The translations under genes were made by a program, and so were the position numbers. This document shows, one piece after another, positions 24,171 through 39,085 of a DNA stretch of 64,000 nt; the stretch's first letter is position 1; the number at the start of each line of letters is the position of its first letter. The notes below the pieces were generated by a model. The model was not told where the DNA came from and made no database searches. It worked only from the letters and a program-made list of their open reading frames with translations. This DNA comes from Candidatus Rokuibacteriota bacterium. GTDB taxonomy: Bacteria > Methylomirabilota > Methylomirabilia > Rokubacteriales > CSP1-6. The DNA lies in the NCBI GenBank assembly GCA_003220685.1, contig QHTE01000053.1:1-64000 (forward strand), in the 5' to 3' direction.

Positions 24171-25253
24171 TCACCAGGCGGCGGTCGCGCCCGGCGGCAG
24201 GATCCACACGCTGTCGGCATCGAGGTGGCGCCGGACGACTTCCTCGGCGATCCGACGGGGCGGCTCGTCGTACGGCTCCCGCGCCAGCGCGAAGGTTCCC
24301 CAGTGAATGCCGAGGAATTTCGTCGCGTGAAGATCCTGCCACGCTTGCAGGGCCTCCTCCGGCGACATGTGCACGGGCCTGGCGAGCGCGCGGGGCGTGT
24401 AGGAGCCGATCGGCAGGGCGGCGAGGTCGAAGGGGCCGAGCGCCGCGCCGATCTCCTTGAAGTGCTCGTAGTAGCCCGTGTCGCCCGCGAAATAGAAGCG
24501 CTTGGTCCCGAGCACCGCCCAGGACGCCCACAGGCGGCGCCCCTGGTCCACGAGCGTCCGGCCCGATCCGTGCTGCGCCGGCGTGCACACGACGGTCACG
24601 CCGCCGATCCTCACCGATTCGCCCCAGCTCAGCTCGACCACGTTTCTGATGCCCCGGTCCTCGAGCCACGCCTTGATGCCGAGCGGCACCACGAAGCGCG
24701 GATTGAATTGCCGCGCGAGGTGCCTGACGGTCGGCTCGTCGAGATGATCGTAGTGATCATGCGAGATCAGCACGAAGTCGATGCGCGGCAGATCGTCGAA
24801 CGCGATGGCCGGCGGCGTGTAGCGCCCGACGCCCACCAGCCCGCCGAACGGGCCGCTGCGGCTCGCCCAGATCGGGTCGGTCAAGAAGTTGACGCCGTCG
24901 AGCTGGACCAGGACGGTGGCGTGGCCGATCCACGTCGCGGTGGCGCGGCTCGAGTTGGCGCGAAGCGCCGTGAGGTCGGGATGGACGATCGGAAGGGGGA
25001 CGACGCGCCGCTCGCCGACGAGCCAGGTGCCCCCGACGATCAGTGAGCGCGCGCGCGCCCAGAGTGAGGCACGGTGATAGCTCGGATCGAGGTTGCGGAA
25101 CGTGCTTCCGACCCGCGGCGCCGCGGAGAGCCCGCCGCCGACGGCGGGCGCGGGGATGGCCGCCGGGACGGGCTGCGGCAGTGCTTCGCTCGCGCCGACC
25201 AGCAGAGCCAGGACGACGAAGAGCAGAGCCTGACGGGCGACTCCGGCGACCAC
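24171..25253 (-). CDS. MBL-fold metallohydrolase (NAPE-PLD/UlaG-like), exported
   Basis: 'WIGHATVLVQLDGVNFLTDPIWASRSGP', 'IDFVLISHDHYDHLD', 'CTPAQHGSGRTL', 'YFAGDTGYYEHF', 'LGIHWGTF'. Confidence 0.9.
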   Translation of the reverse strand: MVAGVARQALLFVVLALLVGASEALPQPVPAAIPAPAVGGGLSAAPRVGSTFRNLDPSYHRASLWARARSLIVGGTWLVGERRVVPLPIVHPDLTALRANSSRATATWIGHATVLVQLDGVNFLTDPIWASRSGPFGGLVGVGRYTPPAIAFDDLPRIDFVLISHDHYDHLDEPTVRHLARQFNPRFVVPLGIKAWLEDRGIRNVVELSWGESVRIGGVTVVCTPAQHGSGRTLVDQGRRLWASWAVLGTKRFYFAGDTGYYEHFKEIGAALGPFDLAALPIGSYTPRALARPVHMSPEEALQAWQDLHATKFLGIHWGTFALAREPYDEPPRRIAEEVVRRHLDADSVWILPPGATAAW

Positions 25254-25302: not shown

Positions 25303-26037
25303 CTACATCTGCTCCTTGAGCGGGAACGCCAGAAGCTCGAGGAACCGGCTGGTGAGGCTGCGGTTCTTCCAGTCCTCGTACAGCACGGGCCGGGAGTTGG
25401 CGAGGTCGTCCTCGAAGATCCGCTCGAGCCGCTGCGCGGTGTCGGCGTCGTAGAGCGCGACGTTCAGCTCCTCGTTGAGCGAGAACGAGCGATGGTCGAG
25501 GTTGGTGCTCCCCACCGTCGCCCAGATGCCGTCGACGACCATCGTCTTGGCGTGCAACAGAGCCGGCCGGTACTCGTAGATCTGCACGCCGTTCTGCAGC
25601 AGGCGGCCGAGCTTCGAGCGGCTCGCCTGGCGAACCAGGTTGTGATCGATCGCGCCCGGGATCAGCAGCACGACCTCGACGCCGCGCTGGGCGGCCCCGA
25701 GCAGCGTGCTGATCATCGTCTCGTCCGGCACGAAGTAGGGATTGGTGATGTGGATGGAGTGGCGGGCCGAGGCCAGCGCGAGCAGGAACATGGTGTACAT
25801 GGCGGTGCTGCCGCCGGCCGGCGAGCTCCGGACGACCTGGGCGTCGACCAGCCCCTTCGAATCCAGGCGCCGGCGCGGAAAATACTCGGGCCCGCCGATC
25901 GCCACCCCCGTCGCCTCGAGCCAGTTCTCGGCGAAGGCGCCCTGCAGCTGCTCCACGACCGGCCCTTCCACGAGGACGTCGGTGTCGCGCCAGTGGCCCT
26001 GCTGGCGTCCGTTTCCGCTCCACTTGCCGATGCGCAC
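25303..26037 (-). pseudogene. 5'-truncated cardiolipin synthase-like phospholipase D protein (second HKD motif only)
   Basis: Sequence opens mid-domain at 'GKWSGNGRQQGHWRDTDVLVEGPVVEQLQ' and retains only the C-terminal 'LLHAKTMVVDGIWATVGSTNLDHRSFSLNEELNV' HKD motif. The expected first HKD is absent; the 5' end overlaps the divergent BON gene. Confidence 0.72.
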
Positions 26038-26659
26038 AGAATGGAAGACTGCAGGCGCGCTCCTGAGCGCCATCCTGCTCGCGCTGCCGCTGACGGCGGG
26101 CGCCGCCGACAAGGCCGGCACCACCGACAAGCCGGGCAAGACCGAGAGCACGCTGGACAAGATGGAGAACAAGGCCAAGGACACGACGCACGAAGTGAAG
26201 GGCGCCGTCAGCGATAGCTGGCTGACGTCGAAGACCAAGATCGCGCTCTTCGCGGACGATCGGGTCAAGGGCAGGGACGTGCGGGTCGAGACCGTCACCG
26301 GCGAGGTGTTCCTGCGCGGGAAGGTCGACTCCGACGAGGCGAAGACCACGGCTGCCGAGATCGCCCAGGGCGTCGAGGGTGTCAAGAACGTGAAGAACGA
26401 TCTGCAGGTCGTGGCGCCGTCGGCGCGCAAGACCGTCCAGGCCAACGACAAGCAGATCACCAAGGCGGTCGAGACCAGCTTCGGCAGGGACCCGCAGCTG
26501 AAGAAGATCGACGTCCGCACCGACGCCGGTGTGGTCGTGCTGAGCGGCGAGGTGCCGAACATCCCGGTGAGCGCGAAGGCTTCCGAGATGGCGCACTGGG
26601 TCGACGGGGTGAAGTCGGTCAAGAACGAGCTCCGCGTGGCGCAGGCGAAGGCCAACTAG
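26030..26659 (+). CDS. BON domain-containing periplasmic protein (two BON domains)
   Basis: Signal peptide 'MRTEWKTAGALLSAILLALPLTAGAA'; 'VRVETVTGEVFLRGKVDSDEAKTTAAEIAQGVEGVKNVKNDLQV' and 'IDVRTDAGVVVLSGEVPNIPVSAKASEMAHWVDGVKSVKNELRV'. Confidence 0.92.
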   Translation: MRTEWKTAGALLSAILLALPLTAGAADKAGTTDKPGKTESTLDKMENKAKDTTHEVKGAVSDSWLTSKTKIALFADDRVKGRDVRVETVTGEVFLRGKVDSDEAKTTAAEIAQGVEGVKNVKNDLQVVAPSARKTVQANDKQITKAVETSFGRDPQLKKIDVRTDAGVVVLSGEVPNIPVSAKASEMAHWVDGVKSVKNELRVAQAKAN

Positions 26660-26729: not shown

Positions 26730-26957
26730 TCACCGCCGGGCTGGATCGCGCGTCTCGGCGTCGTACTGCTCGAAGCGCCTCTTCATCTCGCGCTCGGCCG
26801 GATCGCGCTCCCAGCCATATCGCTCTTGCAGTGCGCCGGCGAGCTTGTCCATCGCGCCGTCGATCCGGTCGAGATCGTCGTCGGTGAGCTTGCCCCACCA
26901 CTGCTTGACCTGACCGCGCATCTGCTTCCACTTGCCCTTGACGATGTCCTGATTCAT
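26730..26957 (-). CDS. CsbD family general stress protein
   Basis: 'MNQDIVKGKWKQMRGQVKQWWGKLTDDDLDRIDGAMDKLAGALQERYGWERDPAEREMKRRF'. Confidence 0.93.
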   Translation of the reverse strand: MNQDIVKGKWKQMRGQVKQWWGKLTDDDLDRIDGAMDKLAGALQERYGWERDPAEREMKRRFEQYDAETRDPARR

Positions 26958-27135
26958 GGCGTATCGCCTCCTTCCGTGTTTCGTATGTCGGTCGACGTCC
27001 TTCATCACGGCGAATCCGTCGGCGAGCGGCAGTCGGAGTTACTCGGTAAATCTTTCTGATCGGGGCGTGGACGCCGCTGCGCTGTTGGCATTGCGGCTGC
27101 ACCAAGATGAGCGCATGCTGTCGCCGGGTTTTCCG

Positions 27136-27759
27136 ATGAGCGCCAAGACCGTCGAGCGGCCGCCGTGGAGTCCGTGGGGCCGCGAGTACGTGAACACGCC
27201 CGGCCGCTTCATCTGGGGCACGCGGCCGTCGGCGCTGGCTCGGGAGGCGAACGAGCTCACGGCGGACCGGGCGCGCGTGCTCGACCTCGGCTGCGGCGAG
27301 GGCCGCGACAGCGTCTTCCTCGCCGAGCAGGGCCACGACGTGGTCGGCGTCGATCTCTCGCTCGACGGGCTCCGCAAGGCCCAGCGCCTCGTGAAGAACC
27401 GCGGCGTTCGCGTGGCGTGGGTGTGCGCGGCCCTGCCCGATCTGCCCGTGCGCGGCCCGTTCGACCTCGTCTACTCCTGCGGCGCGATCCACTACGTGGC
27501 GCGCGGCGAGCGCGGCGCGCTGTTCGCCCGGCTCCGGTGTCTCACGCGCCGGGGTGGTCACCACGCGCACGTCGTCTTCACCGGGCGGCGCATCTACCGC
27601 GAGAAGAGCGAGGTCGTGCATTACTTCGCGCCGGACGAGCTGCGCCGCGCGTACCGCGGCTGGATCATCGTGCGCCACGACGCGGGCTGGATTCCGTGCG
27701 CCCAGGACGGCGTGCACCACGTGCACAGCGTGGAGACGATTCTCGCCCGGCGGCCCTGA
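27136..27759 (+). CDS. Class I SAM-dependent methyltransferase
   Basis: 'RVLDLGCGEGRDSVFLAEQGHDVVGVDLSLDGLRKAQRL', 'PFDLVYSCGAIHYVARGERGALFARL'; start could also be 27115. Confidence 0.9.
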   Translation: MSAKTVERPPWSPWGREYVNTPGRFIWGTRPSALAREANELTADRARVLDLGCGEGRDSVFLAEQGHDVVGVDLSLDGLRKAQRLVKNRGVRVAWVCAALPDLPVRGPFDLVYSCGAIHYVARGERGALFARLRCLTRRGGHHAHVVFTGRRIYREKSEVVHYFAPDELRRAYRGWIIVRHDAGWIPCAQDGVHHVHSVETILARRP

Positions 27760-27794: not shown

Positions 27795-29756
27795 ATGGCC
27801 GCCGAGCTCGAGACCCTGCGCGCGCTGATCGACGCCTTCCGTCCGCCGTCCTGCCCCGTCAGCGTCGACGCCGCCGCGCGGCGCGCGCACGAGTTTCTGG
27901 CGGCGTTCCGTGCGAGCGGCTCGCCGCGAGCCGGCATCCTCGACACGAGCCTCTCGCTGCTGGGCCTGCTGGCGCTCGCTGGCACCGACGGAGGCCGCGA
28001 GTCGGTCAGGCGGCGGCTCACCGTGATGGACTCGAGCCTTCCGCCGCTGCGCGATCTGGCGCGATTGGCCCAGCGGCTGGCCACCGTCGTGCTGTACGCC
28101 ACGCTCGACCAGACGGGGCGTCCCGCGGCGGCCCAGGCGATCGGCTACGACGTCTTCGCCGATCGGCCGCGCGGCGCGGCGCCCGTCGTGCCGGCGGAGC
28201 CGCGGCTCCCGGCTGATGTCGTCGTCGGCCCCGCCGAGCCCGTGCCCGGCGACGTCTACGACGTCGTGGTGGTCGGGTCCGGCGCCGCGGGCTCGGTGCT
28301 GGCGGCCCGGCTCGCCGGCCAGGGGCGGACGGTGGCGCTGGTCGAGTCGGGCGACTACGTGCCCGAGCGATACGATGCGGGCGCGCCGGAGCGCCCGCGC
28401 CCGCACGACGAGCTCGACAATCTGCTCCGCTACTACAAGGACGCTGGGCTCCAGATCACCGACGGCGATTGCCGGATGTCCGTGCTCCAGGGGCAGTGTG
28501 TCGGCGGCGGGAGCGTGGTGAACAACGCGGTGTGCTTCCGGATGCCGGAGCAGGTCCGGAGTATCTGGGCGCGGGAGTTCGGCGCGGCCTGGGCCGTCGA
28601 CGGGCGGCTGGACGCCGCCTACGACCGCATCGCCCGAGACCTTCGCATCGCGCCCGTGACGACCGCGGTCCCCGACGGGTGGATCAACCCGTCGGCGCGC
28701 CACCTGGCGAGCGGGGCGCGGGCGCTCGGCCGGGCCGACGCGCTGCGACCCTGCGAGGTCAACATCGAGGCGTGCCTGGGCTGCGGCTACTGCAATCTCG
28801 CCTGCGCCTATCTCCGGAAGCGGACCGTCTTACAAACGCTGCTGCCGGCCGCCGCCTCGACCGGGCGGTTGCGGATCTTCGCGGGGCGACGCGCGCGCGA
28901 GATCGTCATCCGCTCCACCGCCTACCGAGCCGAGGGCGTGATCGCGGAGCCGACGCGAGGAGGCGGCGAGCGTCGGGTGATTCGCGGGCGGCGGGTCGCG
29001 GTCGCGGCCGGCGCCGTCGGGAGCAGCGCGCTGCTCGGCCGGACGACCGCGCTCAACCCGCTGGCGCTTCCGATCGGCGAGCGGTTCTCGTTCAACTTCG
29101 TGAGCCCCGTGCACGCCGAGTACGAAACCCCGGTGCGCGCGTTCGACGGCCTCCAGATGGGCCACTACTACCTCGAGGACCTGCCGCGGGACGGCTTCGT
29201 GATCGAGACGTGGTGCAGCCCCCCGGCGACGCAGTCGCTGTCACTCCCGGGCTGGATGGACGAGCTGCATGAGAACATGCAGCGGTATGCGTATTACGCG
29301 TCGGCGTCGCCGCTGGTCGGGTCCACCTCGGGCTCGAAGGTCGACACGCGGCACACGCCCGAGCGGATCTGGATCCGGCTCGACGGCCGCGACCTCGACC
29401 GCCTCAAGCACGGGCTCGAGCGCACCTGCGAGCTCTTCTTCGCGAGCTCGCCGCCGCCGCGGCGCGTGCTCATCGGAGCCCGCAAGGGCTGGAGCCTCGC
29501 CCCGGCGACGTATCGGCGCGCGATCGACGCGATCGCCTCGTTCGACGACGTGCAGATCAGCACCGCGCATCCTCAGGGCGGCAACGCGCTCGATCCGGCC
29601 GAGCGCGGCGTCGTCCGGCCCGATTTCCGCGTACGGGACACGCGAGACCTCTACGTGGTCGATGCCAGCGTGTTTCCCACGAGCCTCGGCGTGAACCCGC
29701 AGTGGACGATCATGGCCGTGGCCGATCTGGCCGCCGCCCACGTCGGCGGCGATTGA
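27795..29756 (+). CDS. GMC family oxidoreductase with helical N-terminal extension (long-chain alcohol oxidase-like)
   Basis: 'DVYDVVVVGSGAAGSVLAARLAGQGRTVALVESGDYV', 'QGQCVGGGSVVNNAVCFRMPEQV', 'STAHPQGGNALDPAERGVVRPDFRVRDTRDLYVVDASVFPTSLGVNPQWTIMAVAD'. Confidence 0.92.
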   Translation: MAAELETLRALIDAFRPPSCPVSVDAAARRAHEFLAAFRASGSPRAGILDTSLSLLGLLALAGTDGGRESVRRRLTVMDSSLPPLRDLARLAQRLATVVLYATLDQTGRPAAAQAIGYDVFADRPRGAAPVVPAEPRLPADVVVGPAEPVPGDVYDVVVVGSGAAGSVLAARLAGQGRTVALVESGDYVPERYDAGAPERPRPHDELDNLLRYYKDAGLQITDGDCRMSVLQGQCVGGGSVVNNAVCFRMPEQVRSIWAREFGAAWAVDGRLDAAYDRIARDLRIAPVTTAVPDGWINPSARHLASGARALGRADALRPCEVNIEACLGCGYCNLACAYLRKRTVLQTLLPAAASTGRLRIFAGRRAREIVIRSTAYRAEGVIAEPTRGGGERRVIRGRRVAVAAGAVGSSALLGRTTALNPLALPIGERFSFNFVSPVHAEYETPVRAFDGLQMGHYYLEDLPRDGFVIETWCSPPATQSLSLPGWMDELHENMQRYAYYASASPLVGSTSGSKVDTRHTPERIWIRLDGRDLDRLKHGLERTCELFFASSPPPRRVLIGARKGWSLAPATYRRAIDAIASFDDVQISTAHPQGGNALDPAERGVVRPDFRVRDTRDLYVVDASVFPTSLGVNPQWTIMAVADLAAAHVGGD

Positions 29757-30520
29757 GGCCGGCGACGAGACGCCTCACCGCCGCCGCGCTCGCCTGCGCG
29801 CTGGCTCTCGGCGTGGTCGGCCCGGTCCGGGCGGCCACGCCCCCGCCGAGCGGCGCCGTCCTCGACGCGTGGAAGAACGTGACCACCTTCCACGAGGACC
29901 TCTCGCGAATCGACCGCGCCCGCGACATGCTCGAGAACGAGGTCGCGCGGGCGCCGAGCCTGGAGGCGCTGCTCCTGCTGGCCTGGGCCCATCTCATCTG
30001 GGCCGACTACCGGGCGCCCAGCGTCGACGCCAAGCTCGCGAGCTACGAGCGCGGCCGGGACGTCGCCAAGCGGGCCATCGACATGGCGCCGCGTAGCCCC
30101 GAGGCCCATCTCTGGTACGCCGCGAATCTCGGCCGCTGGGCCATCACGAAGGGCAAGCTGCGCGCAGCGTTTCTCCTGTCGACCTTGAAGCAGGAGATCA
30201 ACACGATCCTCGAGCTCGATCCCAACCACGTCCCCGGGTTGGCGCTGGCGGGCTCGTTCTATCTCGAGACGCCCGCGCTGTTCGGCGGCGACGTCCCGCG
30301 GGCCGAGGGATACCTGCGCCGAGCTCTCTCGCTCGACCCGCACTTCACGCGGGCGCGCGTCGAGCTGGCCCGGTGCCTCATCGCCGAGGGGCGCTACGAC
30401 GAGGCGCGCCAGCAGCTGACGGGCGTCATCGACGAGCGTCAGCCGAGCTACGTCGCCGACTGGGTCATGAAACACAAACCCACCGCGGAGCGCCTGCTGG
30501 CCCAGATCCGCGCCAAGTGA
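29753..30520 (+). CDS. TPR-like TRAP transporter TatT component family protein, exported
   Basis: Signal peptide; 'RDVAKRAIDMAPRSPEAHLWYAANLGRWAITKGKLRAAFLLSTLKQEINTILELDPNHVPGLALAGSFYLETPALFGGDVPRAEGYLRRALSLDP'. TTG start overlaps the GMC stop. Confidence 0.78.
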   Translation: MRPATRRLTAAALACALALGVVGPVRAATPPPSGAVLDAWKNVTTFHEDLSRIDRARDMLENEVARAPSLEALLLLAWAHLIWADYRAPSVDAKLASYERGRDVAKRAIDMAPRSPEAHLWYAANLGRWAITKGKLRAAFLLSTLKQEINTILELDPNHVPGLALAGSFYLETPALFGGDVPRAEGYLRRALSLDPHFTRARVELARCLIAEGRYDEARQQLTGVIDERQPSYVADWVMKHKPTAERLLAQIRAK

Positions 30521-31671
30521 CGGCGGCCTCCGCCGCGCCGCTCGAGGTGCTGGAGCTGTCGCCGGGCCGGCGCGCCGATCGCGCGCGCTTCATCGCCGTC
30601 CCGGCGCCGCTCTACCGCGGCGACCCTCGCTACGTCGCCCCGCTGCGGCGGGAGGTCCACGCCCTTCTCGATCCAGCCCGGAACCCCTGGCACCGCCACG
30701 CGGAGCTCGCGCTGTTCGTCGCGGTCCGCGGGCGCGAGGCGGTCGGCCGGATCGCGGCGATCCGGGACCCTCGCTACGACCGGATCCGCGCCGAGCCCCT
30801 GGGATTCTTCGGCTTCTTCGACTGCGTCGACGACCGCGCGTGCGCCGCGGCGCTCCTCGCCGAGGCCGAGCGCTGGGCCCGAGCGCGCGGCGCCCGCGAG
30901 ATGCGGGGGCCGGTCAGCCCGTCGATGCACGACGAGTGCGGGACGCTCGTCGACGGGTTCGACTCGCGCCCGGTGATCCAGATGCCCTATAACCCGCCCT
31001 ACCACGCGGGCCTGCTCGAGGCGTGCGGCTACCGGAAGGCGCAGGATCTCTTCGCCTACGACTTCGACCTCGGCCAGGCCGTCCGGCCGGCGCTCGAGCG
31101 GATCGCGGGCGCGGTGGAGGCGCGCAGCGAGTTCCGCATCCGGACGATCGATCCACGCCGCTTCGCGAGCGAGGTGGACATAGTGCGCGCCCTGTACAAC
31201 GCCGCGTGGGAGGCGAACTGGGGCTTCGTGCCGCTCGCCGTCGACGAGATGGAATGGCGAGCGCGGCAGCTCAAGCGGCTGATCGATCCGCGCGTGGCCC
31301 TCCTCGTCGAGGCGCAGCGTGGAGCCGGGTTCGAGCCGGTCGGCTTCGCGCTGGCCGTGCCCGACATCAACGAGATCCTGGTGAGGCTCGACGGGCGGCT
31401 CACGCCGCTGGCGCTGTTCCGGCTCGCGTGCGGTCTCCGGCGCGTCCGCACGTGGCGGCTGCTGCTGCTCGGCGTGATCGCCGGATATCGAAAGCGCGGT
31501 CTGGAGGCGCTGCTCATTCGCGAGATCCACGTGCGCGGCGCGCGGATCGGCGCCACGCGCGGCGAGCTGTCGTGGGTCCTCGAGGACAACGTCCTGATGA
31601 ACCGGACCATCGTGAAAGCGGGGGGCCGCCACTACAAGACCTACCGCATCTTCCGACGACCGCTCGGCTGA
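30517..31671 (+). CDS. GNAT-like N-acyltransferase family protein
   Basis: 'YRGDPRYVAPLRREVHALLDPARNPWHRHAELALFVAVRGREAVGRIAAI', 'GPVSPSMHDECGTLVDGFDSRPVIQMPYNPPYHAGLLEACGYRKAQDLFAYDF'. GTG start overlaps the upstream stop (GTGA). Confidence 0.78.
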   Translation: MTAASAAPLEVLELSPGRRADRARFIAVPAPLYRGDPRYVAPLRREVHALLDPARNPWHRHAELALFVAVRGREAVGRIAAIRDPRYDRIRAEPLGFFGFFDCVDDRACAAALLAEAERWARARGAREMRGPVSPSMHDECGTLVDGFDSRPVIQMPYNPPYHAGLLEACGYRKAQDLFAYDFDLGQAVRPALERIAGAVEARSEFRIRTIDPRRFASEVDIVRALYNAAWEANWGFVPLAVDEMEWRARQLKRLIDPRVALLVEAQRGAGFEPVGFALAVPDINEILVRLDGRLTPLALFRLACGLRRVRTWRLLLLGVIAGYRKRGLEALLIREIHVRGARIGATRGELSWVLEDNVLMNRTIVKAGGRHYKTYRIFRRPLG

Positions 31672-31782
31672 GCGGCCCGCGACCAAAGCCCAGGCACGTA
31701 CGGTCCTGGGTCCAGTCTTCGCGAGCGGGCCATTGGCCTAAGATTCCCTCAGAATCCTAAAAGAAGTGCCTTCGAGGCGAGC

Positions 31783-34338
31783 GTGACCCACAGCAACGGA
31801 ACACGAACGATCACCGCGCGCGCGGCGCCGCCGCGTCAGGCAGCCGGCCCCGTTGCGAATGGCGGCGGCGCATCGAGCCTCGTCGACGCCTACGGCCGCG
31901 CCTGCCGCCCCGCGCTCGCGCGCCTGCTCGCCGCGATCGGTCTCGACGTCGTCTACGAGCGCGGGGAGGGCGACACCTTGTGGCTGCGCCGCGACGGCCG
32001 GCTCGTCCCGATCCTCGACCTCGTCGGCGGCTACGGCGCAAACCTCTTCGGCCACCACCATCCCGACCTCGTCGCGGTGGCCCGCCGGTGCTTCGACGAG
32101 CAGGTGCCCTTCCACGCCCAGGCATCGGTCCGGCCCGGCGCGGCGCAGCTCGCCGAGGCGCTCCGCGAGCGCGTGGGCGACTACGTCGTGACCCTGACCA
32201 ACTCCGGCGCCGAGACGATCGAAGCCGCGCTCAAGCACGCGATTCTCGAGCGCCGGCGCTCGACGTTCTGGGCCGTGCGCGGCGCCTTCCACGGCAAGAC
32301 GCTCGGGTCGATCCAGCTCACGTGGTCGTACCGGGGGCCGTACGAGGGGCTCGGCCCGCGCGTGAGGTTCCTCGATTCCGAGGATCCACGCGACTGGGAA
32401 TCGGCGGCGCGCGAGGTCGGCGACATCGCGGCGATCGTCCTCGAGCCTGTGGCCGGCGAGGGCGGGATCCGGCCCCTTCCGGCGCCCTTCGTCGAATGGG
32501 TCCGGAAGACGTGCGGCGCCGCGGGAGTCCCGGTGATCGCCGACGAGGTCCAGAGCGGCATGGGTCGCACCGGCAGCTTCCTGGCCTCGGAGCGACTCGG
32601 CCTCGAGCCGGACTACGTGTGCCTGGCCAAGTCGCTGGGCGGCGGCATTGCGAAGGTCGGCGCGCTGCTGGTCCGCCGGCGCCGCTTCGTCGAGGAGTTC
32701 TCGCTCCAGCACACCTCGACCTTCGCGGAGGACGAGTACGGATGCGCGATCGCCCTCGAGGCGCTGCGGCTCCTCGACCGCGACGACGTGCTCGCGCGCT
32801 GCCGCGCGCGCGGCGAGTTCCTGATCGACGCCTTGCGCCGCGTGCACGCGCGATTTCCCGACCAGGTGAAGGACGTCCGCGGGCTCGGCCTCATGGTCGG
32901 TGTGGAGCTCCGTGATCACGCCAACGCGACGTCGTACGCGCTCCGCATGCTCTCGCGCCAGGACTACCTCGGCTACGTCGCCGCGGCCTACCTGCTGCAC
33001 GGCCACGACCTGCGCGTGGCGCCCTCGCTGGGCGACCCGCGCACGCTCCGCTTCGAGCCCTCGGCGTACGTGCCGGAGGAAGCGCTGGCCCGGTCCGCCC
33101 GCGCCATGGAGGACCTCTGCGCGATCCTGCGCGCCGAGGACGTCGGGCGGCTGACGGGTCACACGGTCGGGTCGACTCCGAGCGCGACGATCGACCACTC
33201 GGTCTGGGGGCGCCCGGACACGCAGGAGGAGCCGCGCACGCCAAGGCGGGTTGCGTTCATCGGGCATCTCCTGCTCGACGAGCACGTGACGATCGTCGAC
33301 CCCTCGTACCGGGCCTTCGGCAAGGACCGTCTCGAGAAATACCTCGACCGGGCCGCGAAGGTACTCGACCCGATCGTCTTCGATCGTGTCCACGTGCGCT
33401 CGACGACCGGCGCCGAGGTCCACCTGAGCTTCGTCGGCCTCGTCCTCTCCTCGCGGCATTTCGCCCGCGCGATGCACGAGCGCGACTCGTTGTGGATCAC
33501 GGACAAGATCGAGAAAGCGGTACGGGTCGCGCAGGAGGCCGGCTGCTCCGTCGTCGGCTTCGGGGGCTATACCTCGATCGTGACGGGCAGCTGCCGGCGC
33601 GTGCGTACGGGCGGCATCACGCTGACGACGGGCAACTCGCTCACGGTCGGGATGGGCGTCGCGGCGCTGCGCGAGGCCGCGCGCCAGCGGGGGATCGATC
33701 TCGCGTCGAGCCGGTTGGCCGTGATCGGGGCGACCGGCAACATCGCGAGCATCTACGCGGCGCTCATGGCGCCCGAGGTCCGCGAGCTCGTTCTCGTGGT
33801 CCGCAAGGCCGGCTCGTCGAAGCTCGTCTCCGTTCTGGGCGGGCTGCGCGCGGCAGCCCCGGGCGCGCGCGTGCGCGTGGTCGACGACCTGAGCGTGCTG
33901 GCCGAGTGTCCGCTCATCGTCGCCGCGTCGAGCACCCCCGAGCCCCTCATCTATCCCGAGCACCTCGGATCCGGGCGGGTCGTGATCTGCGACATCTCGG
34001 TGCCCTCAAACGTGGCGGACGCCGTCGCGCGCGAGTGTCCGAACGTTCTGGTGGTCCAGGGCGGCGTCGTGCGGCTCCCGCACGACCACGAGTTCTCGAT
34101 CGGCGGGATTCCGCTCGCGCTCGGCCACGTCTACGCCTGTATGGCCGAGACCCTGCTGATGGGCCTCGAGGGCTCGACGCACGGCTCGATCGGCCCCGTG
34201 ACGGTGAAGGGCGTCCAGAGCGCCATGGCGATGGCGGACAAGCACGGCTTCACGCTCGCCGACATCCACGCCAACGATGCCGCCTCCGGCTTGATGGGAG
34301 CCGCGTACGCGCGCCGTCACCGGCAGGGCGCTGGCTGA
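31783..34338 (+). CDS. Fusion: class III PLP aminotransferase plus long-chain acyl-ACP reductase-like domain
   Basis: N-terminal half: 'PILDLVGGYGANLFGHHHPDL', 'LTNSGAETIEAALKHA', 'VIADEVQSGMGRTGSF', 'CLAKSLGGGIAKVGALL'. C-terminal half: 'VVGFGGYTSIVT', 'LTTGNSLTVGMG', 'LAVIGATGNIASIYAALM', 'VLVVQGGVVRLPHDHEFSIGG', 'VYACMAETLLMGLEG', closely resembling cyanobacterial AAR motifs. Confidence 0.85.
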   Translation: MTHSNGTRTITARAAPPRQAAGPVANGGGASSLVDAYGRACRPALARLLAAIGLDVVYERGEGDTLWLRRDGRLVPILDLVGGYGANLFGHHHPDLVAVARRCFDEQVPFHAQASVRPGAAQLAEALRERVGDYVVTLTNSGAETIEAALKHAILERRRSTFWAVRGAFHGKTLGSIQLTWSYRGPYEGLGPRVRFLDSEDPRDWESAAREVGDIAAIVLEPVAGEGGIRPLPAPFVEWVRKTCGAAGVPVIADEVQSGMGRTGSFLASERLGLEPDYVCLAKSLGGGIAKVGALLVRRRRFVEEFSLQHTSTFAEDEYGCAIALEALRLLDRDDVLARCRARGEFLIDALRRVHARFPDQVKDVRGLGLMVGVELRDHANATSYALRMLSRQDYLGYVAAAYLLHGHDLRVAPSLGDPRTLRFEPSAYVPEEALARSARAMEDLCAILRAEDVGRLTGHTVGSTPSATIDHSVWGRPDTQEEPRTPRRVAFIGHLLLDEHVTIVDPSYRAFGKDRLEKYLDRAAKVLDPIVFDRVHVRSTTGAEVHLSFVGLVLSSRHFARAMHERDSLWITDKIEKAVRVAQEAGCSVVGFGGYTSIVTGSCRRVRTGGITLTTGNSLTVGMGVAALREAARQRGIDLASSRLAVIGATGNIASIYAALMAPEVRELVLVVRKAGSSKLVSVLGGLRAAAPGARVRVVDDLSVLAECPLIVAASSTPEPLIYPEHLGSGRVVICDISVPSNVADAVARECPNVLVVQGGVVRLPHDHEFSIGGIPLALGHVYACMAETLLMGLEGSTHGSIGPVTVKGVQSAMAMADKHGFTLADIHANDAASGLMGAAYARRHRQGAG

Positions 34339-34339
34339 G

Positions 34340-35551
34340 GTGACGCCGCCCGTCGTGCCGGTCTCCCACGTTCACACGCGGCCGCCGTCGTCGGCCCGCC
34401 CGACCTACGTGGTTCGCGTCGTCGGCCGTGTCGCCGATCTTCCGGCGAGCGACTGGGCAAAGGTCCGGGAGGTCGCGCCGACCGTGTTCATGGATCCGCG
34501 GTTCCTCGAGACGGTCGAGCGCGCCTTCGCGTCGCAGGGCCGGTTCCACCACGCCATCGTCGTCGACCGCCACGAGCGTCCTGTCGCCTGGGCCTCGCTC
34601 TGTACGTTCCCGGTCGACGTCCTCACCTTGGCCGGGCCCGGGCTCCAGGCGCTCGCGCGGGGCGCCCGCGCCGCTCTGCCCGGACTCGGCTCGCTGCGGA
34701 CCTTGTTCGTGGGGCTGCCGGTGTCGCTCGGCCAGAGCCACCTGGCGATCGCGCCCGACGCCGAGCCCGCGGCGGTCCTGGCGGCGCTCGACGAGACCCT
34801 GCAGGCGATCGCGGCGCGCGAGCGCGTGTGGCTCGTGGTCTGGAAGGAGTTCGATCCGGCCGGCGCGGCGCGGCTCGCGCCCTTGCTGGAGCGGGGCTAT
34901 CGCCGCGCGGAGTCGCCGGCGATGCACGCGCTCGACGCGCGCTTCAAGGACTTCGCGGACTACTGCGCGGCGCTCAAGTCGCACTACCGCTACGACGTCA
35001 GACGATCGGAGCGTAAGTTCCGCGCGTCGGGGCTGCGCGTGGCGCAGCTTCACGACGCGGCCGCGATCCGGCGCGTCTACACCGCCGAGGTCCATCGCCT
35101 CTACGAGGCGGTCGTGGCCAGGTCCCCGGTGAAGCTCGAGGTCCTGCCGATCGAGTTCTTCCACGAGCTGGTGCGCCGGCTCCCGGAGCTGGTCAGCCTC
35201 ACCACGATCGCCGACGGCGACCGCATCGTCGCGTTCAACTGGGGGCTGATGAACGGCCGCGTTCACCACTATCTCTTCTGCGGCCTCGACTACACGCGGG
35301 CTCCCGACGCCGACCTCTACTTCAACCTCATGTACCACCAGCTCGACGACGCCTTGCGCCGCGGCCCGGAACGGGTCGAGGTGGGGCAGACCGCCGACAC
35401 GTTCAAGGCGCGCCTCGGCTGCGGGGCGACGCCGCGATACTTCTTCGTGAAACCCCACGGCCTCGTCGCGGGCGCCGCGCTCCGGCACGGCTTCGACCTG
35501 CTCTTTCCGGCCCGCCCGCGCGGCCCGGTTTATTCTGTGTTCCGAGCATGA
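34340..35551 (+). CDS. GNAT/BioF2-like (peptidogalycan biosynthesis-type) acyltransferase
   Basis: 'YCAALKSHYRYDVRRSERKFRASGLRV', 'EFFHELVRRLPELVSLTTIADGDRIVAFNWGLMNGRVHHYLFCGLDYTRAPDADLYFNLMYHQLDDALRRG'. Confidence 0.78.
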   Translation: MTPPVVPVSHVHTRPPSSARPTYVVRVVGRVADLPASDWAKVREVAPTVFMDPRFLETVERAFASQGRFHHAIVVDRHERPVAWASLCTFPVDVLTLAGPGLQALARGARAALPGLGSLRTLFVGLPVSLGQSHLAIAPDAEPAAVLAALDETLQAIAARERVWLVVWKEFDPAGAARLAPLLERGYRRAESPAMHALDARFKDFADYCAALKSHYRYDVRRSERKFRASGLRVAQLHDAAAIRRVYTAEVHRLYEAVVARSPVKLEVLPIEFFHELVRRLPELVSLTTIADGDRIVAFNWGLMNGRVHHYLFCGLDYTRAPDADLYFNLMYHQLDDALRRGPERVEVGQTADTFKARLGCGATPRYFFVKPHGLVAGAALRHGFDLLFPARPRGPVYSVFRA

Positions 35552-36393
35552 AGGGCAAGACCTGCGTCGTCACCGGGACGACCTCGGGGATCGGCAAGGA
35601 GACGGCGGTGGCGCTGGCGGCCGCCGGGGCCCGCGTCGCCATCGTCTGCCGCACGCGGGACAAGGGCGAGCGCGCCCTCGACGAGATCCGGCAGCGGAGC
35701 GGCGGCGACGTCATCCTGTTCCTGGCCGATCTCGGCTCGCAGCGCGCGGTGCGGGCGCTGGCGGCCCGGCTCACCACGGCGCTGCCGCGGGTCGACGTGC
35801 TCGTCAACAACGCGGGGCTCATCCTGGACGAGCGCTTGCTGACGGAGGACGGGCTCGAGACCACGTTCGCGGTGAACCACATCGGCTACTTCCTGCTCTC
35901 GCGTCTCCTCGAGCCGAAGCTGCTCGCGAGCGCGCCGGCGCGAGTCGTCAACGTCGCGTCGCGCGCGCATCACGGAGCCACGATCCGGTTCGACGATCTC
36001 ATGGGCGCTCGCAGCTACGACGGCTGGAAGGCCTACGCGCAGTCCAAGCTCGCCAACATCGTGTTCACCTACGAGCTCGCGCGCCGTCTGGCCGGCACCG
36101 GCGTCACCGCCAACTGTCTGCACCCGGGGGTGATCGCGAGCAACTTCGGCAGCGCGGGGCCGGCGCTGATCCGGCTCGGCGTCCGGATCGGCCGGCCGCT
36201 CATGAAAAGCTCGGCGCGCGGGGCCGAGACGCCGATCTATCTGGCCTCGTCGCCCGAGGTAGAGGGCGTGAGCGGCAAGTATTTCGTGAACCGGCGCGCG
36301 GCCCGCTCGAGCGACGAATCCTACGATCCGGCGGTCGCCGCGCGGCTCTGGAAGGTGAGCGAGGAGCTGACCGCGGCCTCCGACGTGCCGTAG
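35548..36393 (+). CDS. SDR family oxidoreductase (retinol dehydrogenase-like)
   Basis: 'GKTCVVTGTTSGIGKETAVALAAAGARVAIVCRTRDKGERALDEIR', 'TTFAVNHIGYFLLSRLL', 'YAQSKLANIVFTYELARRLAGTGVTANCLHPG'. Confidence 0.93.
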   Translation: MKGKTCVVTGTTSGIGKETAVALAAAGARVAIVCRTRDKGERALDEIRQRSGGDVILFLADLGSQRAVRALAARLTTALPRVDVLVNNAGLILDERLLTEDGLETTFAVNHIGYFLLSRLLEPKLLASAPARVVNVASRAHHGATIRFDDLMGARSYDGWKAYAQSKLANIVFTYELARRLAGTGVTANCLHPGVIASNFGSAGPALIRLGVRIGRPLMKSSARGAETPIYLASSPEVEGVSGKYFVNRRAARSSDESYDPAVAARLWKVSEELTAASDVP

Positions 36394-36404
36394 CGGTCGG
36401 CGCG

Positions 36405-38003
36405 ATGGCCACCGACGATCGCAGCGACGTCCTGGTGATCGGCGCCGGCGCCTCGGGCGCCGCCGTTGCCTGGCGGCTGGCCGGCGCCGGAATCGGCGTC
36501 GTGTGCCTGGAGCAAGGCGACTGGGTCAATCCGAGCGCGTACCCGCACTGGCGGGCCGACTGGGAGCTTCACCGCCACACGGACTGGAGCGCCGAGCCGA
36601 ACGTGCGGCGGCTCACTCAGGATTATCCCGTCAACGACCAGGCCTCGCCGATCTCGCCCCTCATGTACAACGCGGTGGGGGGCAGCACGATCCACTGGAG
36701 CGCGCACTTCCCGCGGTTCCGGCCCTCGGACTTTCGCGTCAAAAGCCTCGACGGCGTGGCGGACGACTGGCCGATCGACTACGCGACGCTCGAGCCGTAC
36801 TTCGACCTGAACGATCGCATGATGGGCGTGGCCGGCATCACGGGCGACCCGGCGTATCCGCCGAAGTCGCCGCGCCAGACGGCGCCGATCCCGCTCGACA
36901 CGCTCGGGCTCACCATCGCCCGCGGCTTCGAGCGGCTCGGCTGGCACTGGTGGCCCTCGGACAGCGCGATCCTCACGCGCGACTACGACGGCCGGCGAGC
37001 CTGCGTGAACTGCGGTCCCTGCGATCTGGGCTGTCCGATCGGGGCCAAGGCGAGCACGGACATCACGTACTGGCCGAAGGCGCTCGCGGCGGGCGCGCGC
37101 CTGGTCACGCGCGCCCGCGTGCGCGAGATCACGCTCGGCCCGGACGGCCTCGCCGACGGCGCGATCTACTACGACGGCGACGGGCGAGAGCGTGCGCAGA
37201 AAGCGCGCGCGGTCGTGCTGGCCGCCAACGGCATCGGCACGCCGCGGCTCCTGCTGAACTCGCGCTCGGCGCGGTTTCCCGACGGGCTCGCCAATCGCAG
37301 CGGCCTCGTCGGGCGCAACCTCATGTTCCATCCCTACGCGATGGCGCGCGGCGTCTTCGACCGGCCCCTCGGCGGCCATCGCGGTCCGATCGGCTGCAGC
37401 ATCATCAGCCAGGAGTTCTACGAGACGGATCTCGCGCGCGGCTTCGTCCGCGGCTACTCGTTCCAGGTGGCCCGCGGGCTCTCGCCGATCGCCTCGGCCA
37501 ACGGCGGCTCGGTCGGCGACCGCGTGCCCTGGGGCGGGGAGCACCGGCGGGCCTACGCCGAGCGGTTCGACCGAACCATCACCGTCGCCATCATCGGCGA
37601 GGATTTACCGGAGACGGACAATCGCGTCGACCTCGATCCCACGCTCACCGATTCGCACGGCATTCCCGCGCCGCGGGTGTCCTACCAGCTCAGCGAAAAC
37701 AGCCGGCGGATGCTCGACCACGGTATCGCGCGCGCCCGCGAGGTCCTGCTCGCCGCGGGCGCGCGGGAGGTCGCCTTCAATCCGCTCTTGCGCGCCGGCG
37801 GCTGGCACCTCATGGGCACCGCGCGCATGGGGCGCGATCCGGCCACGTCGGTGGTCGACGCCGAGGGGCGGTGCCACGACGTGCCGAACCTCTACATCGT
37901 CGACGGGAGCGTCATGGTGACGTGCGCCGGCGTGAACCCGACCTCGACGATTCAGGCCGTGGCGCTCCACGTCGCCGACGGGATGATCCGGAGACGCGCG
38001 TGA
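36405..38003 (+). CDS. GMC family oxidoreductase
   Basis: 'DVLVIGAGASGAAVAWRLAGAGIGVVCLEQGDWV', 'ACVNCGPCDLGCPIGAKASTDITYWPKALAAGARL', 'GGWHLMGTARMGRDPATSVVDAEGRCHDVPNLYIVDGSVMVTCAGVNPTSTIQAVALHVAD'. Confidence 0.93.
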   Translation: MATDDRSDVLVIGAGASGAAVAWRLAGAGIGVVCLEQGDWVNPSAYPHWRADWELHRHTDWSAEPNVRRLTQDYPVNDQASPISPLMYNAVGGSTIHWSAHFPRFRPSDFRVKSLDGVADDWPIDYATLEPYFDLNDRMMGVAGITGDPAYPPKSPRQTAPIPLDTLGLTIARGFERLGWHWWPSDSAILTRDYDGRRACVNCGPCDLGCPIGAKASTDITYWPKALAAGARLVTRARVREITLGPDGLADGAIYYDGDGRERAQKARAVVLAANGIGTPRLLLNSRSARFPDGLANRSGLVGRNLMFHPYAMARGVFDRPLGGHRGPIGCSIISQEFYETDLARGFVRGYSFQVARGLSPIASANGGSVGDRVPWGGEHRRAYAERFDRTITVAIIGEDLPETDNRVDLDPTLTDSHGIPAPRVSYQLSENSRRMLDHGIARAREVLLAAGAREVAFNPLLRAGGWHLMGTARMGRDPATSVVDAEGRCHDVPNLYIVDGSVMVTCAGVNPTSTIQAVALHVADGMIRRRA

Positions 38004-38452
38004 CACCCGAGCGTCTGGCGGCGAAGCGTGACCTCCTGCGCGCCGTGCTCGACACTCTCGTGCCGGCCGGCGACGGCTTTCCGGAAAGCGGCGCCCTGGC
38101 GCTCGACCATCTCCTCGCGATCGCCGGCGCCTCGGCCGAGGCCGGATCGCTGCTGGCGCGCGCGCTCGACGCCGTCGAGACCGCGGCGCGCGCCGACGCG
38201 GCCCGCGGATTCGCGGGGTTGAGCGTCGCCCGGCGCGAGGATCTTCTTCGCGCGGTCGAGCGTTTACACCCCGAGGCGTTCGACGCGCTCGTCCGCCACA
38301 CCTATGACGGGTTCTACAGCCATCCGGCGACGATCGCGCGGCTCGGGCTCGAGCCCGGGCCGGTGCAGCCGCGCGGCCACCGGATCGAGCCGGCGGCGCT
38401 CCCGGATCTGGCGCGCGTGGCCGCACGAGGGCCGATCTTCCGTCGCGCGTAG
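38000..38452 (+). CDS. Gluconate 2-dehydrogenase subunit 3-like protein
   Basis: 150 aa following a GMC oxidoreductase with GTGA overlap; 'KRDLLRAVLDTLVPAGDGFPESGALALDHLL', 'HPEAFDALVRHTYDGFYSHPATIARLG'. Confidence 0.7.
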   Translation: MTPERLAAKRDLLRAVLDTLVPAGDGFPESGALALDHLLAIAGASAEAGSLLARALDAVETAARADAARGFAGLSVARREDLLRAVERLHPEAFDALVRHTYDGFYSHPATIARLGLEPGPVQPRGHRIEPAALPDLARVAARGPIFRRA

Positions 38453-38506
38453 GTGTCGCCGCCGGGCGACGTTGACGGCCGGCGCCGGGTATCACTAGAC
38501 TCGCTC

Positions 38507-39085
38507 ATGCCCGAGCCCCCGCTCCCGATGAAGCGCTGGAAGCGCGTCGAGTACGAGCGCCTCGTCGACCGGGGGATTTTCGAGCCGGGTGACCGCATCG
38601 AGCTGATCGACGGCCTCTTGCTGGTTTCGGAGCCTCAGAGCTCGTTCCACTACACGGCGATCCAGCTCGTCGAGCGCGTGCTGTCGCGCGCCTTCGGCGA
38701 CGGCTGGACCGTTCGCACGCAGGCCCCGATCGCGCTCGACGATGCGTCGGAGCCCGAGCCGGACGTCGCAGTAGTGCGCGGCGAGATTCGTGACTACGCG
38801 ACCTCGCATCCGGCGGATCCCGTGCTCGTCGTGGAGGTCGCGGTCTCGAGCCTCACGTTCGATCGCGAGCACAAGGCGAGCCTCTATGCGCGCGCCGGGC
38901 GCCCCGAGTACTGGATCGTCAATCTGGTCGACCGCGTGCTCGAGGTGCGGCGCGAGCCGGCGCCGGAGCCATCGGCGCCGTACGGCTGGGACTATGCCGT
39001 GGTCGATGTGCTGGGCCAGGCCGAGCGAGTGTCGTCCTTGGGAGCGTCGGCCATCCAGATCCCCGTCGTCGATCTGCTGCCGTGA
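38507..39085 (+). CDS. Uma2 family (DUF820-like) restriction-endonuclease-fold protein
   Basis: Paralogue of 1591..2166: 'RIELIDGLLLVSEP', 'EPEPDVAVVRGE', 'PVLVVEVAVSSLTFDREHKASLYARAGRPEYWIVNLVDRVLEVRREP'. Confidence 0.88.
   Translation: MPEPPLPMKRWKRVEYERLVDRGIFEPGDRIELIDGLLLVSEPQSSFHYTAIQLVERVLSRAFGDGWTVRTQAPIALDDASEPEPDVAVVRGEIRDYATSHPADPVLVVEVAVSSLTFDREHKASLYARAGRPEYWIVNLVDRVLEVRREPAPEPSAPYGWDYAVVDVLGQAERVSSLGASAIQIPVVDLLP

Follow-up and report, generated by a model that had tools for sequence, protein, structure and literature searches.

A Rokubacterial operon that may convert a fatty amine to a ceramide-like amide lipid

This study was concerned with a run of eight genes in a Candidatus Rokuibacteriota bacterium (assembly GCA_003220685.1). 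The genes lie on the + strand at positions 27795-38452 of a 64,000-nucleotide stretch, here called the window, which is contig C23 (QHTE01000053.1), 1-64000, of a 6.1 Mb genome (G000) that is 87.6% complete. We give about an even chance to the reading, drawn from the genes only, that the operon builds on a fatty amine to produce a ceramide-like amide lipid. In the proposed pathway, a fusion protein encoded by the fourth gene would act first: its reductase domain (Cys786) would convert a fatty acyl chain on acyl carrier protein (acyl-ACP) to the aldehyde, and its transaminase domain, which uses pyridoxal phosphate (PLP) at Lys283, would convert the aldehyde to a long-chain amine. The protein of gene 5 may then acylate or aminoacylate this amine, and that of gene 3 may attach a fatty acyl group to an amine of the resulting product; this is the presumed role of its relatives located next to serine palmitoyltransferase (SPT). 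SPT is the enzyme that normally starts ceramide-type lipids. A GMC oxidoreductase (GMC1) and a short-chain dehydrogenase/reductase (SDR) might possibly oxidise or reduce the chain, or else form the aldehyde from an alcohol.

The fusion (31783..34338, 851 aa) joins a class III PLP transaminase to an acyl-ACP reductase. The N-terminal part matches Aminotran_3 in Pfam (2.1e-62), with Lys283 within the motif AKSLGGG, and the best PDB relatives are CrmG and PigE. The C-terminal 367 aa match the acyl-ACP reductase (AAR) of S. elongatus (6jzq; phmmer, 1.6e-16), and Cys786 (codon at 34138) aligns with its active-cysteine motif ACFAE (HVYACMAET versus MFACFAEA). We take Cys786 to be the equivalent of the active C294 of S. 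elongatus AAR. Two described proteins have the same domain order. TamH of Pseudoalteromonas tunicata (PtTamH), from the tambjamine YP1 pathway, shares the catalytic-type cysteine, binds PLP, makes a C12 amine and takes an acid to an amine by way of TamA-bound acyl-ACP (PMC9594044). KecF of Pseudomonas koreensis, from the koreenceine pathway, is predicted to convert an ACP-bound chain to the aldehyde and then the amine, with cyclisation following (PMC6498172). In PigE of the prodigiosin pathway both domains are homologous to those of the fusion, but the order is reversed, with the reductase first. Because TamH has been biochemically tested, the conversion of acyl-ACP to an amine by its homologue in the window is well supported by analogy. 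The original prediction of an acyl-thioester to aldehyde to amine conversion is likewise well supported by the domain order, Lys283, Cys786 and the reactions shown for TamH (PMC9594044). The fusion was also considered as a new architecture, which was ruled out since the TamH/KecF type is already described.

The characterised fusions found serve alkaloid pathways, namely tambjamine and koreenceine. The operon could be an ordinary alkaloid or pigment cluster of the TamH/KecF kind, in which the amine goes into a small natural product that is secreted, and the GNAT proteins tailor that product or protect the cell from it. The patchy presence of the fusion among relatives agrees with this explanation, as do the many homologous fusions, often those outside the clade of the window fusion, that adjoin PPDK/PigC-like genes of about 880 aa. 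However, the operon has no ketosynthase, pyrrole-forming or PigC-like gene, the genome has its sole PPDK_N match on contig C105 and not on C23, and the family of gene 3 is a lipid-acylating one linked to SPT. The partners of PtTamH are TamA (ligase-ACP) and bipyrrole genes, whereas the operon holds two tandem GNATs, GMC and SDR genes and no PigC-like gene; the kec cluster has type II polyketide synthase (PKS) genes and the operon has none. PigC-like condensation, as in many fusion clusters, was ruled out because no such gene is nearby. For these reasons, an alkaloid or pigment cluster is considered a real though minor possibility. As a separate observation, TamH-like fusions at three loci (L041, L072 and L039) stand next to PPDK/PigC-like genes and distant gene-3-like GNATs, with DUF3419-like genes (by eye) also in L041 and L072; these loci are probably another family of lipid-amine clusters.

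Scanning the GTDB species genomes gave 80 loci carrying the reductase domain. Eight fusions, that of the window among them, form a clade with full support (100/100); the other seven come from a second species of the genus (G006), another genus (G010), Gemmataceae, Luteitalea, Crocosphaera (two) and Saprospiraceae. In all members of this clade except Luteitalea, where a P450 gene follows, the fusion is directly followed by gene 5. It is found directly 3' of the fusion in four phyla, represented by Rokubacteria, Gemmataceae, Crocosphaera and Saprospiraceae. At another Gemmataceae locus (L029), where the fusion is partial and lies at the contig edge, no gene 5 is present downstream. A consistent location of the fusion within an already characterised pathway was looked for and was not the pattern found.

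Gene 5 (34340..35551) encodes a FemAB-like tandem-GNAT transferase. It matches Acetyltransf_6 (3e-15) and FemAB_like (1.8e-12), and its AlphaFold model (AF2) is a tandem GNAT (pLDDT 85, pTM 0.83), which bears out its prediction as a GNAT-like protein. The best folds identified by Foldseek were FemX, the aminoacyl-tRNA-dependent synthases Sbb17/Sba18, MprF and FemA; for example, the match to FemX 7z5y had an E-value of 9.7e-12 and TM-scores of 0.53/0.61. FemABX-type transferases (FemX, VlmA, Orf11/Sbb17) thus share the tandem GNAT fold and give the top structural matches, but identity to them over the fold is about 13-18% and the PDB holds no match at the sequence level; a sequence-profile search of the PDB gave nothing useful. 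Identities among the fold matches are about 10-18%, with TM-scores of 0.43-0.54 by query, and acyl-CoA-donor tandem GNATs, including N-myristoyltransferases, are also among them. Because of these low identities, moderate TM-scores and acyl-CoA matches, the donor of gene 5 could be either acyl or aminoacyl. Phe355-Lys356 of gene 5 is invariant in six homologs and resembles Phe328-Lys329 of DhpH-C, as compared without a residue-level alignment. The catalytic lysine is Lys305 in FemX and Lys329 in DhpH-C. According to a review, the FemABX-like enzymes VlmA and Orf11 use aminoacyl-tRNA to aminoacylate small acceptors (PMC12945691).

On the plasmid pC052_E of Nostoc sp. C052 (L177, 5427-19939), a 41% homolog of gene 5 lies near a free-standing class III aminotransferase, in a cluster that also holds a fatty-acyl-reductase-like (NAD_binding_4) protein, a desaturase and a nitric oxide synthase oxygenase domain. 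The adjacency to the fusion across phyla and this plasmid cluster tie gene 5 to amine-forming enzymes in several settings. Its protein is predicted to transfer an acyl or aminoacyl group to the fatty amine. Gene 5 was also considered as the ceramide synthase (CerS) homolog, and this was ruled out; it is gene 3 that belongs to the SPT-linked family.

Gene 3 (30517..31671) encodes a tandem-GNAT N-acyltransferase assigned by its homologs to an SPT-linked family of ceramide-synthase type. Pfam, NCBIfam and PDB sequence searches with the window protein gave nothing useful. The G010 ortholog passes Acetyltransf_1 (24.0 bits, cutoff 20.7) and the AlphaFold model is a tandem GNAT of modest confidence (pLDDT 70; four sequences in the alignment), so the GNAT-like label also holds for this gene, though the window protein has no Pfam match. 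The family was recognised through the gene neighbourhoods of homologs. In Methylomirabilota relatives, homologs with 42-46% identity to gene 3 lie directly 3' of SPT genes; these SPT genes score 553 and 513 bits with NF047600, under the 640-bit model cutoff, and their nearest solved structure is the bacterial SPT 3a2b. The order SPT-GNAT-oxidoreductase recurs in Saprospiraceae (SPT 683 bits, above cutoff), Streptomyces and Rubrobacter. Of 290 alphaproteobacterial genomes, 42 have a member of the gene 3 family and 39 carry SPT-like genes (E<=1e-100). All 39 SPT-positive genomes have the family, against 3 of the 251 SPT-negative genomes (248 without it; Fisher p 3e-45, uncorrected for genome kinship). 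In addition, locus L175 carries, in order, a ligase, ACP, SPT, a kinase-like gene, LptF/LptG-like permeases, a flippase-like gene, a hydroxylase-like gene and a gene 3 homolog (names by eye), which resembles the Caulobacter region in which CC_1154 is CerS (PMC11324152). Because gene 3 belongs to a GNAT family found at the ceramide synthase position beside SPT, the predicted N-acylation has stronger support than was available to the original prediction, and gene 3 would N-acylate the amine product.

Two side observations concern this family. A relative in the same family has, one after another at L145 (242-6158), a fatty-acyl-AMP ligase, an ACP-alpha-oxoamine synthase fusion, an SDR and a gene-3-family GNAT; this is possibly a cluster of sphingolipid type in which the synthase carries a fused ACP. 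E. coli YghO can also be placed in the SPT-linked GNAT family because it is a nearly full-length homolog (33%) of gene 3.

A simpler product would be an N-alkyl fatty amide. In that case a single GNAT, either that of gene 5 or that of gene 3, would N-acylate the fatty amine, and the other would have no part in the route. In favour of this, gene 5 is the constant partner and gene 3 adjoins the fusion only in Rokubacteria. Tandem GNATs include the N-myristoyltransferases present in the fold search, and the G010 ortholog of gene 3 has a weak NMT match (E 0.013). However, each of two genera retains both GNATs, in matching positions, and therefore both are probably used, which makes an amide formed by one of them quite unlikely.

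The gene content was compared with the bacterial ceramide locus, which consists of SPT, a CerS-type GNAT and CerR. The GNAT of that locus and gene 3 are of one family, but no SPT was found in the genome and the PLP enzyme of the operon is the fusion. The sole match of the SPT search in G000, a genome 87.6% complete, was a glycine C-acetyltransferase (607.5 bits, cutoff 493), and this one candidate for an SPT elsewhere in the genome was rejected on that identity. The search gave no SPT in either G006, with 98% completeness, or G010 (100%) at a threshold of E<=1e-90. A CerR-type extended SDR is likewise not in the operon; CerR is of the extended epimerase type, whereas the operon SDR (35548..36393) is classical and matches the adh_short (7e-37) and PRK06197 type.

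The conservation of neighbours around the fusion was examined in relatives, and the neighbours are kept. In G006 the whole gene order and both flanks are present with 78-95% protein identity. In G010, GMC1, gene 3, the fusion, gene 5 and the SDR are kept in order (69-76%), with the SDR at the same place in both (90% in G006, 71% in G010). For these reasons, the arrangement is considered to go beyond chance. The prediction of an eight-gene operon therefore stands for these five genes, which are kept across two genera, and not for the TPR gene, GMC2 and the subunit-3-like gene, which are missing from the G010 locus; there the TPR place is occupied by an unrelated 471-aa ORF (open reading frame) with no Pfam match, and neither GMC2 nor the subunit-3-like gene is present. 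Among 59 relatives, orthologs of GMC1 (E<=1e-40), close orthologs of the fusion and orthologs of gene 5 were identified only in G000, G006 and G010. Distant fusions (33-36%) occur in two further genomes, and in a handful of others gene 5 has remote matches only (24-29%). A search of 95 genomes of the phylum gave only one further match to gene 5 at E<=1e-20.

All eight ORFs and their junctions agree with the original prediction. The stop of GMC1 (27795..29756) overlaps the TTG start of the TPR gene (29753..30520) in TTGA at 29753-29756, and the TPR gene overlaps the GTG start of gene 3 at 30517 in GTGA (30517-30520). A 111-nt gap (31672-31782) precedes the GTG start of the fusion at 31783; no promoter was predicted in it, and it is not strongly conserved in G010. 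One nucleotide separates the end of the fusion from gene 5 (GTG, 34340), gene 5 and the SDR overlap in ATGA at 35548 (ATG start), 11 nt lie ahead of GMC2 (ATG, 36405), and GMC2 overlaps the subunit-3-like gene (GTG, 38000) in GTGA at 38000-38003. The end of the run at 38452 was not upheld. The co-directional run exceeds eight genes at both ends, with a same-strand methyltransferase ORF upstream (26956-27759, stop 35 nt before GMC1) and a Uma2-like ORF downstream that starts (GTG) at 38453, the base directly after the last operon gene. The Uma2-like ORF (38453-39085) has zero gap to the subunit-3-like gene and is also found in G006. On the - strand upstream of the operon, a Lactamase_B_2 protein (NAPE-PLD-like by eye) and a phospholipase-D-like ORF (24171-25253 and 25303-26655) are kept in G006 and were not seen at the G010 locus.

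Pfam confirms the GMC, TPR, Aminotran_3, Acetyltransf_6/FemAB_like, SDR, GMC and Gluconate_2-dh3 assignments among the window proteins. GMC1, an FAD-dependent GMC oxidoreductase of 653 aa (GMC_oxred_N 2.9e-29, GMC_oxred_C 1.3e-18), belongs to the conserved core with the SDR. It has a 150-aa region ahead of its GMC domains that has no Pfam match, so the predicted long-chain-alcohol-oxidase-like N-terminus was not confirmed. The region shows no profile similarity to the subunit-3-like protein either, which rules it out as a fused Gluconate_2-dh3 subunit. The TPR label of the second gene was retained (TPR_19 4.5e-14) and its TatT label was not (21.2 bits, cutoff 26.5); a role as a TatT/TRAP component was ruled out on this score. 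This accessory protein has a plausible Sec-type signal peptide by eye. The other accessory genes encode GMC2 (36405..38003, 532 aa; GMC_oxred_C 1.2e-27), with the His/Asn motifs WHLMGT and GVNP, and the Gluconate_2-dh3-like small subunit (38000..38452; Gluconate_2-dh3 2.3e-08), which is probably its partner. GMC2 is known from two species of the genus only (95% in G006), and the small subunit has 85% identity in G006.

With two GMC enzymes, an SDR and a gluconate-dehydrogenase-like subunit, the operon could instead be catabolic or detoxifying, the GMC and SDR enzymes oxidising an alcohol or aldehyde and the fusion run toward amine disposal. We regard this as very improbable: the fused acyl-ACP reductase with its conserved cysteine points to biosynthesis, GMC2 and the subunit-3-like gene are outside the conserved core, and the link between the fusion and gene 5 is independent of the GMC genes.

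Several points weigh against the proposed ceramide-like lipid. First, the dinucleotide motif of the reductase, GATGNIAS at 649, has Ala in place of the third Gly of GxxGxxG, with the first two Gly kept. Secondly, gene 3 is not part of the CerS clade of Alphaproteobacteria: it forms a separate branch among other SPT-linked lineages, with an unresolved backbone, and may therefore have changed substrate; its CerS-type label comes from the SPT-linked family. Third, gene 3 has no homolog in the Crocosphaera and Gemmataceae genomes, although these carry both the fusion and gene 5, and it is thus placed outside the core chemistry there. In addition, no dedicated ACP or acyl-ACP ligase was found within the operon. 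Since gene 5 is the constant partner and those genomes have no gene 3 homolog, gene 5 acting before gene 3 is the preferred order, although the order and both substrates are inferred. A specific version, which we think rather unlikely, has gene 5 moving an amino acid from aminoacyl-tRNA to the fatty amine and gene 3 N-acylating it, to give an N-acyl-aminoacyl-N'-alkylamide. If true, this would be a two-chain, ceramide-shaped lipid made without SPT, whose head group is the side chain of the amino acid, and the fusion with gene 5 would form a lipid-amine cassette common to several phyla.

The original prediction knew of no named pathway with this set of genes, a suggestion that is only half borne out. 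The fusion type is described, as TamH and KecF; for the gene combination no description was found in the open-access literature, most subscription journals and preprints being outside that scope. The same literature gave nothing on this gene set as a fatty-amine or ceramide-like pathway or for sphingolipids of Rokubacteria. Each enzyme type is known and, as far as was found, the novelty lies in the company of genes that the fusion keeps. Another non-canonical bacterial route to sphingolipid-type bases is SgaAB of Pseudomonas fluorescens MYb115, where PKS-derived sphingolipids are made by a PKS and an alpha-oxoamine synthase (PMC12134224); the window operon has no oxoamine synthase.

If the proposed pathway is correct, it would be a route to a ceramide-like lipid that does not start from SPT, and surveys of sphingolipid-type lipids that use SPT as the marker would miss its producers. 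Gene 5 gives the recognised family of fatty-amine-forming fusions a constant partner, which is useful for biocatalysis, and the operon offers a context in which the acyl acceptor of the SPT-linked GNAT family may be probed away from sphinganine.

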